Shown: piece by piece, positions 5,613 to 10,772 of the stretch
How positions within the stretch are numbered: position 1 is the first letter of the stretch
How the letters are laid out: every line of letters begins with the position of its first letter
Translations under genes and position numbers: made by a program
Notes under the pieces: model-generated
What the model saw: the letters and a program-made list of their open reading frames with translations, nothing else
What the model was told of the DNA's origin: nothing
Databases searched by the model: none
Origin: Afipia felis ATCC 53690
GTDB taxonomy: Bacteria > Pseudomonadota > Alphaproteobacteria > Rhizobiales > Xanthobacteraceae
Reading direction: 5' to 3'
Length of the DNA stretch: 64,000 bases
Assembly (NCBI RefSeq): GCF_000314735.2
Contig: NZ_KB375270.1
Coordinates: 3,224,001 to 3,288,000, forward strand

Positions 5613-6041
5613 ATGCGCGATCAGACTCCGGCGAAGGGCCTCCAGAGGGCCGAATTGGCCCGGCGGACGGGCGCTAATCTCGAAACAGTGCGCTACTACG
5701 AGAAGGTCGGCCTGCTGCCACCGCCGCCGCGAACGGCCGCCGGCTATCGGAGCTATGACAGGGCGCACGAACGCCGTCTCAGCTTTGTGCTGAGGGCGCG
5801 TGAACTTGGATTCTCACTTGAGGAGGTACGCGCCTTGTTGCGTCTGGTGGACGAGCGGGACCAGCCGTGCGCGGAAGCGAGCCGACTCGCGGCAACTCAC
5901 TTGGTGAACGTGCGGACGAAAATCGCCGATCTGCAACGTATGGAGGGAGTCCTGAAGAGGGTCCTCGCGCAATGCGGTGATGGAAGGCGCCCGGATTGCC
6001 CGCTGATCGAGACGTTGTTTCGTGAGACGACCGTCGAATAG
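5613..6041 (+). CDS. merR: Mercury-responsive transcriptional regulator MerR
   Basis: A 142-residue MerR-family protein. The N-terminal winged helix-turn-helix includes ELARRTGANLETVRYYEKVGLL and AGYRSYDRAHERRLSFV, followed by the dimerisation helix and a C-terminal loop. Three cysteines match the Hg(II)-binding set of MerR: C86 in QPCAEAS, C121 in AQCGDG and C129 in PDCPLIETLF. This separates it from zinc-, copper- and redox-sensing relatives. It represses merT without mercury and activates with it, through the operator in the divergent intergenic region. The ATG at 5613 leaves full space for the operator upstream. Confidence 0.93.
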   Translation: MRDQTPAKGLQRAELARRTGANLETVRYYEKVGLLPPPPRTAAGYRSYDRAHERRLSFVLRARELGFSLEEVRALLRLVDERDQPCAEASRLAATHLVNVRTKIADLQRMEGVLKRVLAQCGDGRRPDCPLIETLFRETTVE

Positions 6042-6153
6042 GTCGGCTCGATTACGCCGAAACACGCTGGATTTTGCTCCCAGTTTATCCGGAAGCGCGG
6101 ACTTCGGCGCGAATCGGAAAACAAGCCAAGCAATCGAATTTACGGGGTAGTTC

Positions 6154-6193
6154 GGCTGTGGGGACAGGATCCGAACCTGTGACCTCCAATGAG
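6154..6193 (-). other. tRNA 3'-end fragment, initiator-tRNA-like
   Basis: On the minus strand the sequence carries a tRNA T-arm: a 5-base stem ACAGG, loop TTCGGAT and stem CCTGT, preceded by GGAGGTC and followed by CCCCACAGCC. This resembles the 3' end of initiator tRNA-Met(CAT), including a CTCAT-like stretch just before it. The 5' half with the acceptor and D-arm is not present, and CCA is replaced by CCG, so it is not a working tRNA. Such pieces often mark attachment sites or scars of integrative elements. Confidence 0.5.
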
Positions 6194-6302
6194 CGCGAGC
6201 GATCTTCCCAGCGAACGCGACAAGAAAAGTACCACCGCTCTTCGCGACGCTCGCCGCCTCTCTTACGTCGCCGTCACGCGCCCCGAAAAGAACTCAACCT
6301 GA
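6189..6302 (+). pseudogene. Possible remnant of a UvrD/AddA-type helicase (motif VI)
   Basis: A 37-residue frame contains RDARRLSYVAVTRPEK, which closely resembles helicase motif VI of UvrD-family enzymes (RRLxYVAxTRA). Nothing else of a helicase is visible on either side, and the frame stops soon after. It overlaps the edge of the tRNA fragment and lies between the mer and ubiquitin-like modules. If real, it is a small leftover of a gene lost during rearrangement; a chance match cannot be excluded. Confidence 0.35.
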
Positions 6303-6665
6303 TTTTTCAGGAGCATCATCACTCGCCGTGGTGAAGGAGCTCTTTGACAGAAGTCAGAATTGAATAATCGACGGGCGTCACCCATCCCATACCTAAGACC
6401 GACGCCGGCAGTCCTTCCGCCTTCGTGGCCTCGCTTGAAGGCGTCGGGGCATTGCGGGCGAAAGACTCATATGGCCTGCTTCCGACTCTCCCAGCGCCAT
6501 GTGCCGCAAGTCTGAGAAACATTAAACGGGGAGCAATCGCTAGACCCTCGAAGCCAACCCTTAAGAGGAGTGGCGCGCCGGACAGGATCAAACTGGGCAC
6601 TGCTATGTCATTGTTGCCGCCATCAATTTCTGATTCCGGCAATTTGCACTTCGCGCCAGACGCAG
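6303..6665. other. Intergenic stretch without a recognisable gene
   Basis: Overlapping open frames of about 85-107 codons exist on both strands here, but none resembles a known family, has a good ribosome site or shows a recognisable domain. The stretch lies downstream of the DUF6527 gene and probably belongs to the rearranged junction between island modules. Confidence 0.4.
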
Positions 6666-7088
6666 TTATTTCGCACGCTTAAACAGCGTTACTACCCAGG
6701 CGATGAACCGTTGCCACCAAGCTGGCGGTGTGGACGGCGCCGGCGGCGGTGGCGGCTTGATTTCACCAGTGTAAACTTGGCTGGTGTAGTGATCTGCTCG
6801 TTGCGCGCGCTGCGTCTCACCATAGGTCATGCTCGGATACCAATCGATCCGCGACTCCCTGATCCAATAGTGTGATTTGCAGGGCAAAACGCCGAGGCCT
6901 ATCGAGGGCTCAAGCGAGACCGTCGAGCCGTGATCAGTCAATCGCCACTTCGAGGGATTGAGGGGCGTCACAACTTTATTGCCGCAGCCGCAGCAGCATA
7001 GGTGAGATGCGGTTTTAAAGCGGTTGGAAATGTAAAGCATGCCTTTGTCGAGATCCTTTGGGATGAACTCGACGTAGCAGTGCTTCAT
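6666..7088 (-). CDS. DUF6527 family protein of the ubiquitin-like operon
   Basis: A 140-residue protein starting at MKHCYVEFIPKDLDKG. The N-terminal 90 residues match the DUF6527 pattern: HLCCCGCGNKVVTPL (C31-C33, C35), TVSLEPSIG, then LPCKSHYWIRESRIDW. The Cys and His residues suggest a metal site; the conserved Ser in EPSIG and the His in KSHYW are candidate catalytic residues. The C-terminal 40 residues are a proline run and a hydrophobic-basic tail (WWQRFIAWVVTLFKRAK), possibly a membrane anchor. It follows the E1-like gene by 14 bases. From memory, proteins of this family occur beside bacterial ubiquitin-like proteins and one has been reported as a serine deubiquitinase (BubE). That role here is inference. 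Confidence 0.78.
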   Translation of the reverse strand: MKHCYVEFIPKDLDKGMLYISNRFKTASHLCCCGCGNKVVTPLNPSKWRLTDHGSTVSLEPSIGLGVLPCKSHYWIRESRIDWYPSMTYGETQRAQRADHYTSQVYTGEIKPPPPPAPSTPPAWWQRFIAWVVTLFKRAK

Positions 7089-7102
7089 GGTCGTGCGCCG
7101 CG

Positions 7103-8296
7103 TCACTCGGTCTCCTCAATCGCGATTACGCCGGTTGCAATTTGGTAGCTGGAATAATGCTCGCGTCCGGCGTCGCGGTAGAAGCCGATCAAACGCTTCC
7201 ATCTTATCACAGCCATCGCGGCGTTCAGCGCATTCAATTCAGCGATCTGGATGTTGGTGGCGTACTCGTTCTCCGCCTCATCTTCCTCGCCGAACGACAT
7301 GCGGGTTGCGATATGATCGCTCTTGTCTGGCGTGCAGGTGAGGACGCGCACGATACCCTGCAAGCCCGTCGGCGCACGCACCACGCCCATGCCGACGTCG
7401 ATGAACGACACGTTGTGTTCAAGGAGCCAATCGACGATTGCGCGCTTAGACTTACCGTTATCCAGGCACAGAAAGGCAAAGTTGATACCCTCAAGCTGCT
7501 GGATGTTTTCAGCGGTCAGCTTTGCTGGATGCTTGATCAAGCCGCGTCTGCGCAGCTTGCCGTAGATGTCGCCCAGTGTATCGACCTTGGATTTCTTGCT
7601 TTCGAGCTCTTCCAGCGACCACGCTCCCGGTGCGCGGAACGCGTTGTGCGTGTCGAAACGGTCGCCGTCGAAGATATGAATCTCCCCGACGCGAGTCTTC
7701 GCCACGAAATCGAGGACGTACGATCCAGTGCCGCCTACGCCTATGATGGCGACGCGCTGCTCTTCGAGCTTCTCGTTATCGGCGCCCACGTGGACACGGC
7801 TTGACGCCGTGTCGATGTAATTGAAGACATCGTCATCGTCTTCGTCCGTAGCGTATACCGGGAAGGTCTGCGCCGTGACTTCCGGGCGGATCTTCTGCGC
7901 CTCGCCAACAATCCAGCCGAGATAGGCCTGCATCTTGTGGACGTAATCGCGATAGCTGGCCTTCGCCGAGAAGGTGAAGTCAGCTTGGACGCCTTTGCCG
8001 AAATTCTGTGGCGCACTGGGATTCTCGAAGGCGCGGATTTTTGCACCGTCGGCCTTACATGGGTGCTCCCCCGTCCAGTAGGCAACGTGAGCGCCCGGCT
8101 TCTTGGTGCGCTCGTGCCCGTTAACGACCTGCGTCTCCAACTTGGAGAAGAGAACGCCGTCTTCGCGGACTTCGCGCGAGGACGTGACGTAGGGCACATC
8201 CTTGACCAAGAGGTATCCGCTGCGGATCTCGAGATGAAAGCCCGCGTTGCGAAGCGCGAGCAAATCATCGCTACGAGCGAGTAGCCGGTGTGACAT
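7103..8296 (-). CDS. E1-like ThiF-family adenylyltransferase with N-terminal DUF6791-type domain
   Basis: A 397-residue protein. Residues 1-150 form a DUF6791-type region, thought to be E2-like, with AYWTGEHPCKADG (C80) and FTFSAKASYRDYVHKM. Residues 155-385 form the ThiF/E1 adenylation domain: FNYIDTASSR, the nucleotide-binding IIGVGGTGSYV (186-192), IFDGDRFDTHNAFR with the metal and arginine positions, FLCLDNGKSK (C277), and DVGMGV. E1 enzymes adenylate the C-terminus of a ubiquitin-like protein before transfer to a carrier residue. The start ATG lies 26 bases inside the ubiquitin-like gene and has GAAGGA upstream, so the two are translationally linked. Fusion of the N-terminal domain with E1 suggests one polypeptide does two steps. 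Its substrate targets are unknown. Confidence 0.88.
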   Translation of the reverse strand: MSHRLLARSDDLLALRNAGFHLEIRSGYLLVKDVPYVTSSREVREDGVLFSKLETQVVNGHERTKKPGAHVAYWTGEHPCKADGAKIRAFENPSAPQNFGKGVQADFTFSAKASYRDYVHKMQAYLGWIVGEAQKIRPEVTAQTFPVYATDEDDDDVFNYIDTASSRVHVGADNEKLEEQRVAIIGVGGTGSYVLDFVAKTRVGEIHIFDGDRFDTHNAFRAPGAWSLEELESKKSKVDTLGDIYGKLRRRGLIKHPAKLTAENIQQLEGINFAFLCLDNGKSKRAIVDWLLEHNVSFIDVGMGVVRAPTGLQGIVRVLTCTPDKSDHIATRMSFGEEDEAENEYATNIQIAELNALNAAMAVIRWKRLIGFYRDAGREHYSSYQIATGVIAIEETE

Positions 8297-8579
8297 CGAA
8301 TTCCATGTCCTTCTTCACCTGCACGGACTCGCCTTCGATAAGCGTGCCGGTCGGTTTGTCGTTGTTGCCCTTGCTATACTGAACCGCATAGCGCTGGTTC
8401 TCCGGCAGCGGCGCCGCGCTGATCAAGACCAGCAGCTGCGCATAAGAGAGGGGGCCCTTCTCGACCTCATATGGCGTGCCGTTCACGTAGATTGTGATCA
8501 TGTGGTCGTTGCCGCCGCCGTGGCCGGGGCTGCCCCCGCCATTACCGTTCCCATTGCCGTTGTTGTTACCGTTCGCCAT
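8271..8579 (-). CDS. Ubiquitin-like protein, multiubiquitin family (single beta-grasp domain)
   Basis: A 102-residue protein with a flexible Asn/Gly-rich N-terminus (residues 1-25, repeating NGNGNG) followed by one beta-grasp domain: ITIYVNGTPYEVEKGPLSYA, QLLVLISAAPLPENQRYAVQ, and GTLIEGESVQVKKDMEFDV. This matches the multiubiquitin (Multi_ubiq) domain, which is often repeated but is single here. The C-terminus is DVTPATRS, with no Gly-Gly; I recall similar ends in this family, so it may be used as such or trimmed. A strong AAGGAG site precedes the ATG. The gene overlaps the E1-like gene by 26 bases, strong evidence that the E1 activates this protein. Confidence 0.87.
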   Translation of the reverse strand: MANGNNNGNGNGNGGGSPGHGGGNDHMITIYVNGTPYEVEKGPLSYAQLLVLISAAPLPENQRYAVQYSKGNNDKPTGTLIEGESVQVKKDMEFDVTPATRS

Positions 8580-8594
8580 GTCTATGCTCCTTGC

Positions 8595-8837
8595 TTAGTG
8601 TTTTTTGTCACGAGGCGGGAAAGGATCGCGTCCCGGAGCGACCGTATCAGAGTCGCGCCATTTCGCGTCGCGACCCTGAATCCTAACCTCGCCACCGCCG
8701 AGGCTGCGGACCGTTGCCTTTGCCTGCTGTTCGGCATTGGACTGTTTGTGGTGCACGCTTTCGGGTGTGGCCGAAGCGGCCTTCTTCACCGCCCAATCCG
8801 TGCCGTGCTTCACTACAAAGCGATCATTCTTCGACAT
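8595..8837 (-). CDS. DUF2188 domain-containing small protein
   Basis: An 80-residue protein starting at MSKNDRFVVKHGTDWAVKK. The pattern FVVKHGTDWAVKKAASATPE, then VHHKQSNAEQQAKATVRSLGGGEVRIQGRDAKWRDSDT is that of DUF2188, a small soluble domain of unknown function in which the query-like HGTDW and IQGRDAKWRDSDT segments are conserved. It is the first gene of the four-gene operon, 15 bases ahead of the ubiquitin-like gene. Possible roles are a conjugation target, adaptor or assembly factor; nothing in the sequence decides between them. An upstream in-frame start would add 14 residues without a better ribosome site. Confidence 0.75.
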   Translation of the reverse strand: MSKNDRFVVKHGTDWAVKKAASATPESVHHKQSNAEQQAKATVRSLGGGEVRIQGRDAKWRDSDTVAPGRDPFPPRDKKH

Positions 8838-8951
8838 TCGCTGTCTCCAACTTTGACTTGCACCTTGCGATTCTGCCATGGCACACTTGTTACTACCGCC
8901 ATCGTTTGTCTTTCATGGCGAAGATGTCAAGTTATTTATGTCGGAGACGCC

Positions 8952-9308
8952 ATGGGTGAGGACCAAGCCACTGAAATCTTTAGTAAACGGCTCAGAGAAG
9001 CGCGCGACCTGCGGGGCTTGAGCCAAGCCCTGCTGGCGGCCAAAGCGGGTCTGCCGCCCGCTTCCGTGTCGCATTTCGAATCGGGACCTAGGAAACCGTC
9101 CTTCGATAATCTCAAGGCTCTGGCCAAGGCATTGGACGTGACGACGGACTATTTGCTTGGTCGTTCCGAAACACCCGACGCATCGGCGGAAACAGTTGGC
9201 CGACTTCACCGTGATCTACACAAATTGTCATCACAAGACCTGGAGCTAGCTCAGGATTTCGTCGAGCTTCTCCTCAAGAAGCGCAACTCCGGAAACGACC
9301 AAACATGA
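8952..9308 (+). CDS. XRE-family helix-turn-helix regulator
   Basis: A 118-residue protein. Residues 10-66 form a Cro/C1-type HTH: FSKRLREARDLRGLSQALLA, AKAGLPPASVSHFESGPRKP, SFDNLKALAKALDVTTDYLL. The C-terminal helix probably dimerises or contacts the partner peptidase. ATG 8952 is chosen because GGAG lies 7 bases upstream; the frame is open much further upstream but that part runs opposite the DUF2188 and ubiquitin-like genes. Its stop overlaps the ImmA start (ATGA), so the two are coupled. It diverges from the ubiquitin-like operon across 114 bases. There a TTGACA hexamer on the minus strand (8925-8930) could be a -35 box for that operon, so repression of both directions is plausible. Confidence 0.88.
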   Translation: MGEDQATEIFSKRLREARDLRGLSQALLAAKAGLPPASVSHFESGPRKPSFDNLKALAKALDVTTDYLLGRSETPDASAETVGRLHRDLHKLSSQDLELAQDFVELLLKKRNSGNDQT

Positions 9309-10195
9309 GTGCGGGACTGCGACTGGCTCGGCGCTCAATTGCGGAGTCGGCAGCGACCCAAGTGCTGCGCGCAAACAACATTGAAGGTCCATGGGTCGAT
9401 CCGATAGCGATTGCCAAGGCTAAGGGTATCGAAGTTCGTGCCAAGCCGGATACCGCCGACGGCGTATCAGGGATGCTCCTCAAGGCAGGCGACGAGTTCG
9501 GAATACTCTATGCTACGAAAATTCCAAGCCGTGGTTTCCAACGATTCAGCGTTGCCCATGAACTAGGGCACTACTGCATCGAGGGACATTCGGACGCGCT
9601 CCTCGATAACGGGATGCACATCTCACACGCAGGGTTCCAATCTTCCGATCCTTACGAGCACGAAGCGGATCACTTTGCGGCGGCGCTGTTGATGCCGGAG
9701 AGAGCGTTCAAGCGCGCAATTGACGAGTACGACCCTGGCCTCGCTTGCGTCGAGGCGCTGAGCAAGCAATGCGAAACCTCACTAACCGCGACTGCCATAC
9801 GTTACGTCACGTTGACTGCTGATGGAGTTGCGGTGTTGTTGACTAAGGGCGACGGCGTGGAATGGTGCTTCATGTCGGATGGCCTGAAGCAAGCGAAGGG
9901 ACTGAGGTTCATTCGCAAATGGGCGCCAGTTCCCGATACGACGCTGACGGCTTCTTTCAATACACGCCCAGATGATGAGCGAGCTGGCCAAAGCGATTCC
10001 AGAGAGGCTTGTCTCAATGACTGGATGGGCGGCGATTGTTCATATCGCGTGACGGAAGAAGTCATCGGTTTGGGTCGGTACGGACGCAGTCTTACGATAT
10101 TGACCTGCAAGGGCTTGTCTATGCGCTCCGAAGCCGAGGAGGACGACGGAGACGAAGACAAGTTGATTGAAAGCTGGACGCCACGATTCAAGTGA
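9305..10195 (+). CDS. ImmA/IrrE family metallo-endopeptidase
   Basis: A 296-residue protein. The peptidase domain (about 20-140) has the zinc motif VAHELGHYCIEGHSD (H85, E86, H89) and the downstream glutamate in DPYEHEADHFAAALLMP. Residues 150-296 form a second domain with no motif I recognise. Known ImmA proteins cleave a neighbouring XRE repressor after stress or a signal peptide, releasing transcription of a mobile element. The 4-base overlap with the XRE gene supports that pairing. Here the natural target would be the XRE protein controlling the divergent ubiquitin-like operon. Processing of the ubiquitin-like protein itself is a less likely alternative. The expected end of the island lies about 500 bases downstream. 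Confidence 0.87.
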   Translation: MSAGLRLARRSIAESAATQVLRANNIEGPWVDPIAIAKAKGIEVRAKPDTADGVSGMLLKAGDEFGILYATKIPSRGFQRFSVAHELGHYCIEGHSDALLDNGMHISHAGFQSSDPYEHEADHFAAALLMPERAFKRAIDEYDPGLACVEALSKQCETSLTATAIRYVTLTADGVAVLLTKGDGVEWCFMSDGLKQAKGLRFIRKWAPVPDTTLTASFNTRPDDERAGQSDSREACLNDWMGGDCSYRVTEEVIGLGRYGRSLTILTCKGLSMRSEAEEDDGDEDKLIESWTPRFK

Positions 10196-10389: not shown

Positions 10390-10466
10390 TGGCGCGCCCG
10401 ACACGATTCGAACGTGTGGCCTCCACCTTCGGAGGGTGGCGCTCTATCCAGCTGAGCTACGGGCGC
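10390..10466 (-). tRNA. tRNA-Arg(CCG)
   Basis: A complete 77-base cloverleaf on the minus strand. The acceptor stem pairs GCGCCCG with CGGGCGC. The D-arm is GCTCAGCTGGATAGAGC. The anticodon stem CCACC/GGTGG encloses loop CTCCGAA, anticodon CCG. The T-arm is ACACG TTCGAAT CGTGT, and CCA is encoded. It reads Arg codon CGG. It lies between the ImmA gene and a truncated tRNA-Arg copy. The acceptor stem differs from that copy, so the two are not simple duplicates; this one may have come with the island and replaced the interrupted gene. Confidence 0.95.

Positions 10467-10727: not shown

Positions 10728-10772
<45 letters not shown>

Follow-up and report, generated by a model that had tools for sequence, protein, structure and literature searches.

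Gene content of the cassette

We analysed a 64,000-nucleotide stretch of the Afipia felis ATCC 53690 genome (contig NZ_KB375270.1, positions 3,224,001 to 3,288,000; hereafter the window), which carries a four-gene, minus-strand cassette built around a ubiquitin-like protein. The cassette is a real and well-conserved variant of the Bub (bacterial ubiquitination-like) family, with a fused E2-E1 architecture and a known switch. Its first gene (8595-8837) encodes a DUF2188 protein of 80 residues. It is followed by a ubiquitin-like modifier (Ubl) of 102 residues (8271-8579), a 397-residue E2-E1 fusion of the NCBIfam PRK06153 group (7103-8296), and a DUF6527 protein of 146 residues (6666-7106). Within the fusion, an E2-like DUF6791 domain (residues 11-163; 7808-8266) precedes a ThiF/E1 adenylation domain (residues 173-338 by Pfam; 7283-7780). 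All four proteins passed the Pfam gathering cut-offs, with E-values of 1e-12 for DUF2188, 1e-8 for Multi_ubiq, 4e-42 for DUF6791, 2e-14 for ThiF and 6e-22 for DUF6527. The four open reading frames (ORFs) were confirmed as real and correctly placed.

The cassette had been described as a tight operon with gaps of 15 and 14 bases and one 26-base overlap. The 15-nt gap between DUF2188 and Ubl and the 26-nt Ubl/E1 overlap (8271-8296) stood. In place of the 14-base gap, DUF6527 more probably starts at GTG 7106 than at ATG 7088, because the GTG has a good ribosome-binding site and overlaps the E1 stop by 4 nt (GTGA). An overlap of this length is also seen between the listed E1 and DUF6527 ORFs of 12 relatives, out of 31 that carry DUF6527. 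For DUF2188, the listed ORF (8595-8879) is longer than the assigned gene; the start at 8837 is preceded by GGAG and gives a length that fits the homologues, most of which have 80 residues.

Conservation of the three-gene core

The search for related loci returned 27 E1 loci, one of them in this genome, and 385 alphaproteobacterial genomes added six, giving 32 other loci (numbered with L). These include near-duplicates (L007/L009/L010, L004/L005, L011/L012 and L032/L034), and the locus samples are not independent. Ubl directly preceded E1 in 31 of the 32 loci and DUF6527 directly followed it in 31; both gaps are contig ends, which argues against a chance assembly. The named loci come from Bacteroidota, Chloroflexi, Planctomycetota, Elusimicrobia, Actinomycetes, Patescibacteria, several Pseudomonadota, and a bin labelled as a Nitrososphaerota archaeon. 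DUF2188 was present at two of the 32 (downstream in L014, first gene in L030). Thus, of the four families that had been proposed as one system, three co-occur, and DUF2188, judged from these sequences, is an optional accessory and not a Bub core gene.

Among the 385 alphaproteobacterial genomes, seven contained DUF6791, this one included. Afipia sp. 1NLS2 carries, on contig NZ_ADVZ01000001.1, an E1 with 100% identity to that of the window. E1 matches were found in 115 of 72,556 plasmid records, and none in phage records. Of four plasmid records opened, three had the three-gene core, overlap included, and one had no annotation. In two plasmids the core lies near a UvrD-helicase gene (L149 and L151), in L149 also near DNA repair exonuclease/YhaN genes.

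The ubiquitin-like protein and its overlap with E1

The Ubl consists of an Asn/Gly-rich N-terminus and a single Multi_ubiq domain (8286-8495; 35.6 bits, cut-off 24.5), which bears out its earlier assignment to the beta-grasp type. It also matched the multi-ubiquitin 9cd2 in the PDB (E 0.0018). Its C-terminus, FDVTPATRS, lacks Gly-Gly. The same holds for the general pattern, F-x-[VA]-x-x-[TSA]-x-x-[SA], with Ser as the last residue in 31 of 32 loci.

At every one of the 32 loci in which both genes could be seen (31 besides the window), the overlap was exactly 26 nt, with the end of the Ubl stop codon always 26 nt past the first base of the E1 start. This start was ATG in 31 loci and TTG in one. 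The ATG is formed by an Asn, Asp or His codon with a final T, followed by G. Codon choice was evaluated in 30 rows, with L009, L010 and L017 left out. L023 had a Val codon, and all 29 two-fold codons ended in T. With expectations based on the T/C usage of the gene concerned, the product is 7e-10, a value that is overstated, some loci being near relatives. On the strength of the 29 T-ending codons, selection appears to act on the position of the E1 start within Ubl, with translational coupling as the simplest reason.

In one locus (L013:7430-8011), two stretches of DUF1508 (YegP) domain are fused to the N-terminus of a Bub Ubl. Both domains were present in 39 of 120 relatives listed, of 776 found (the query's own record counted).

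The E2-E1 fusion

Fold comparison of the predicted E2-E1 protein gave Citrobacter BubCD as the closest solved structure for the E1 domain. The match extends to residue 397, beyond the Pfam ThiF match. Invariant E1 positions were GxGGTG, D210, D212, N218, R221, K237 and D300, with D279 nearly invariant. The E2 part lay outside this match, and DUF6791 was predicted as a separate model. Its best structural match was a chain which we take to be BubB, the E2-type protein of Bub; the next-best folds include a UEV domain, an E2 variant without a catalytic Cys. G19, P35, H70, G76, P79, G84, S110 and Y125 were invariant in DUF6791, and K112 nearly so, while no Cys was conserved across the aligned relatives.

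With the E1 domain closest to BubCD and the N-terminal domain closest to BubB, E2-like domain and E1 are fused on one chain. Pfam found no separate E2, Prok-E2_E or JAB protease among the cassette proteins. The original prediction of an E1 with an N-terminal E2-like domain, in a compact system lacking a separate E2, agrees with these results. The two parts are on separate ORFs in 5 of the 32 other loci.

As a separate observation, a split E2/E1 Bub operon in L026 is preceded by a ThiF gene (5698-7188) whose Prok-JAB match stays below threshold (20.6 bits, cut-off 25); two Bub types may be adjacent here.

The DUF6527 protein

Across 29 DUF6527 sequences, 13 columns were invariant, including H35, C37, C39, C41, S68, C76, S78, H79 and Y80. 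By-eye comparison showed that the DUF6527 protein of L048 has lost the Cys cluster and S78 and has kept D-P-S and the His, which makes S68 and H79 the better candidates for a Ser-His pair. A Bub serine protease with a Ser-His dyad has reportedly been described by Ye et al. in 2026. The original prediction had tentatively named DUF6527 as a serine deubiquitinase of Bub systems. The invariance of S68, S78 and H79 makes a putative Ubl-specific serine protease plausible at the level of motifs. Sequence search found no convincing solved relatives, and a literature search found no paper joining DUF6527 to bacterial ubiquitin.

At its C-terminal end (6666-6760) the protein has a linker rich in proline and a basic/hydrophobic tail rich in Trp; most relatives have an ending of similar kind. 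Trp occurred in the last 20 residues of 25 of 30 members, as against ~49% expected from Trp frequency elsewhere. The tail may be a membrane or partner anchor.

The CapH/CapP switch

A divergent promoter/operator region of 114 bp (8838-8951, no strand) separates DUF2188 from two plus-strand genes that overlap by 4 nt (9305-9308). The first encodes a CapH-type helix-turn-helix (HTH) repressor of 118 residues (8952-9308; PADLOC capH 1.4e-23), for which the listed ORF, 8247-9308, was over-extended. The second encodes a CapP-type ImmA/IrrE metallopeptidase of 296 residues with an HELGH zinc motif (9305-10195; PADLOC capP 4.8e-62; Pfam Peptidase_M78). HTH repressor and ImmA peptidase thus form one operon, divergent from the cassette. 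A scan of 8838-8951 for a sigma-70 promoter consensus and a clear operator palindrome found neither.

A CapP or CapH homologue was found in the flank of 20 of the 32 other E1 loci and in none of the remaining 12; the flanks covered up to 8 kb or 1.5 kb, and near-duplicates are included in the count. The profiles were derived from Bub loci, and fused XRE-ImmA proteins also match them. L019 has a WYL gene in place of CapP/CapH.

The original prediction had placed this XRE/ImmA switch outside the known versions of such systems. By its PADLOC matches it is assigned to CapH+CapP, and according to the excerpted text of PMC13373217, CapW or CapH+CapP accompany 219 of 544 Bub operons. The same excerpts state that CapP is activated by single-stranded DNA (ssDNA) and cleaves CapH, and that phage protection by Bub operons has not been shown to date.

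Comparison with known systems

The earlier suggestion of a relation to Bub is borne out by the folds of E1 and E2-like domain. Bub (BubA/BubB/BubCD; Citrobacter 9ea4, 9ea5, 9ea8, 9eae and 9eav) shares with the cassette a Multi_ubiq Ubl as the first core gene, the E2-like fold, the E1 fold and the adjoining CapH/CapP, whereas here the E2-like domain is fused to E1, and the Ubl C-terminus also differs. In the JAB type of Bub, E1 carries a Prok-JAB domain; presumably BubCD is such a fusion of JAB protease and E1. This domain is absent from the cassette proteins, and the cassette is therefore not of the JAB sub-architecture. A Rhizobium phaseoli plasmid operon (L048:2339-6185), taken as the JAB-type gene order, reads HTH-ImmA-DUF2188-Ubl-E2-(JAB-E1)-DUF6527. 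It combines a JAB domain with DUF6527 and has a separate E2 (Prok-E2_E) gene and Prok-JAB on E1, both of which the window lacks.

Polyubiquitin operons, described in the available portion of PMC11354881 as PolyUbl, inactive E2 and JAB-E1, have Ubl, E2-like and E1 parts in common with the cassette, but a JAB-E1 fusion in place of the E2-E1 fusion, DUF6527 and single Ubl domain found here. The anti-phage operon Bil (BilABCD) likewise has Ubl, E1 and E2; according to the same portion its E1 and E2 genes are separate and accompanied by a JAB protease, unlike the cassette. The window Ubl had no significant match to BilA (E 0.66), and the cassette is not assigned to Bil. CBASS Cap2 is an E1-E2 fusion; in the cassette, by contrast, the E2-like domain is DUF6791 without a conserved Cys, a Ubl gene is adjacent, and there is no CD-NTase among the cassette genes. 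For the CapH+CapP regulators, both genes, their order and their divergent position were alike, and no difference was noted.

DUF2188 at other loci

DUF2188 is basic, with an isoelectric point of 10.1 in the window and above 8 in 50 of 54 sequences. It is a common family, with 1187 relatives at E 0.001. DUF2188 occurred in 81 of 297 genomes of the order, and 30 loci were returned, that of the window included. CapP or CapH lay within ~1.5 kb of DUF2188 at 10 of the 29 other loci and was missing at 19. Control stretches, placed at distances of 25 and 50 kb in 20 of these genomes, contained neither gene in any of 40 cases (P 6e-5, one-sided Fisher test). The gene after DUF2188 gave PADLOC matches to a Pycsar cyclase in L056 (3e-158), a TRIP13-type CBASS ATPase in L064 (7e-152) and a CBASS cyclase in L071 (2e-172). 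In L074, DUF2188 is next to a Ubl-E1 pair and in L080 beside a TetR gene; the ORFs downstream of it in L059, L060, L075 and L079 had no PADLOC match.

For plasmids, 18 of 40 records were opened, mostly skipping near-duplicates, with flanks of 3.5-5 kb. CapP/CapH-like genes were present at 11 of these 18 loci. A defence gene was next to DUF2188 at seven (L036, L037, L038 and L048-L051): two CBASS, two TIR, one DUF1883-TIR, a type II methyltransferase set and Bub (L048). One of the TIR neighbours was scanned and matched PADLOC ThsB (4e-121). The other 11 loci had no next-in-line defence gene; L042 has a helicase gene, with weak PADLOC matches. By manual reading, DUF2188 touches the regulator in 18 of 21 regulator-bearing loci, 15 of them divergent, but not in L056 and L052; L068 is unclear.

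As the promoter-proximal gene, DUF2188 recurs across operons for Pycsar, CBASS, TIR, restriction-modification and Bub, frequently with a CapH/CapP-type regulator alongside. PADLOC already contains it as candidate PDC-S16. Since it also leads unrelated defence operons, it belongs rather with the regulator and may be a transferable component of the modules that control defence. Literature mentioning DUF2188 contained nothing on defence, judged by title, and sequence search found no solved relatives.

DUF2188 was also considered as a distant YegP (DUF1508), an idea that came from the YegP genes behind CapKS in the excerpts of PMC13373217 and from the DUF1508-Ubl fusions in L013 and relatives. Profile comparison of 54 DUF2188 with 62 YegP sequences gave a probability of 0.1%, and the idea was rejected.

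Two further observations concern this family. Genes for a conserved family of ~207 residues start 13 nt or less behind DUF2188 in L060, L061, L063, L066, L067 and L072, forming a possible new two-gene unit; the two members scanned had no Pfam match. DUF2188 also occurs in two Mycobacterium prophage records (L054 and L055; 2 of 50,697); in one of them the gene carries an antitoxin annotation and follows a BrnT-like toxin.

Genomic island

A mobile island of ~183 kb, inserted in tRNA-Arg(CCG), has the cassette at one of its ends. The native gene, whole in the relatives L146 and L147, is split here in the anticodon region. Its 5' half marks the island end (10728-10769, minus strand) and is the same as both relatives in 42 of 42 bases. 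The 3' half lies 182.7 kb away without mismatch (C1:3051985-3052018). Both junctions share the 10-nt core CTCCGAAGGC. An integrase match (C1:3052888-3053379) lies ~0.9 kb inside the far island end, and a weak VirB4-type match inside the island (C1:3116800, E 5e-4). An intact tRNA-Arg(CCG) on the minus strand (10390-10466), with 89% identity to the relatives' gene, is probably a replacement copy brought by the island. Just beyond the cassette and also within the island, a mercury-resistance-type gene set includes a MerR-type regulator (5613-6041, Pfam); the remaining mer gene names were assigned from reading of translations.

Proposed mechanism and alternatives

We consider it probable that the cassette is a Bub-type conjugation operon with a fused E2-E1 under CapH/CapP control, and that DUF2188 is its first-gene accessory. 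CapH would repress the divergent promoters. As inferred from other CapH/CapP pairs, ssDNA from DNA damage or phage would activate CapP to cleave CapH, and the operon would then be expressed. The E1 domain would adenylate the Ubl C-terminus, and Ubl would pass to the attached E2-like domain. As this domain has no conserved Cys, Ubl would be held there through an oxygen ester, for which the invariant S110 is the best candidate, before being given to targets. DUF6527 would cut it off again, with S68 and H79 as candidate residues. The 26-nt and 4-nt overlaps would couple translation of the three core proteins. DUF2188, as a basic protein, would go functionally with the damage-responsive control module and not with the conjugation chemistry. 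Such an operon may act in phage or DNA-damage defence.

Instead of phage defence, the cassette could serve housekeeping or DNA repair, as a modification system that travels on mobile elements, which we regard as unlikely. CapH/CapP-type control answers DNA damage, and no Bub phage protection is reported, both according to the excerpts of PMC13373217; in addition, the core adjoins the helicase and repair genes on the plasmids mentioned above, from Rhizobium (UvrD and exonuclease/YhaN) and Acinetobacter (UvrD). However, CapH/CapP-type genes and DUF2188 elsewhere sit with CBASS, Pycsar, TIR and restriction-modification genes, and the distribution is as patchy as the seven DUF6791 genomes indicate.

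Another alternative takes the E2-like domain as an inactive scaffold, with E1 adenylating Ubl for Ubl assembly or for Ubl-AMP/sulfur-type chemistry and not for target conjugation. Weighing against conjugation are the missing conserved Cys, the Ubl without Gly-Gly, the UEV domain among the next-best folds, and the E2 of polyubiquitin operons, described as inactive in the available portion of PMC11354881. Yet S110 and H70 are invariant, and K112 nearly so, across very distant sequences. DUF6527, found at 31 of 32 other loci, would be of little use without conjugates to cut. Moreover, the closest fold is BubB, and the Bub E2 has been reported active through oxyester intermediates. A pure scaffold is thus quite improbable. 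Slightly less probable still is that DUF2188, as a common housekeeping gene, came to lie before the operon by chance: it is widespread, went undetected at 30 of the 32 other E1 loci and often lacks CapH/CapP nearby (19 of 29 loci, including L076 and L077, which share the C-terminal tail of the window protein), but it is also the first gene in the Bub loci L030, L048 and L074 and in other defence operons, and the neighbourhood of CapH/CapP far exceeds the controls.

If the favoured reading of a Bub-type conjugation operon is true, one modifier, one bifunctional enzyme and one protease, kept in step by conserved overlaps, would make up a very compact Ubl conjugation system. It would apparently work without thioester chemistry and would offer a tractable test of cysteine-free E1-E2 transfer. 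For DUF2188 we suggest, tentatively and at somewhat less than even chance, an effector-independent third part of DNA-damage-responsive control modules. The small basic protein would be the first product once CapH/CapP-type regulators open the operon, and Bub, CBASS, Pycsar, TIR and restriction-modification systems would all share it. It may bind nucleic acid, and may either detect a signal of phage or DNA damage or hold the effector back until such a signal arrives. The least expected result, and the one most worth following, is the broad DUF2188 pattern; it suggests that immune control in bacteria has a widespread, uncharacterised component shared by mechanistically unrelated systems.

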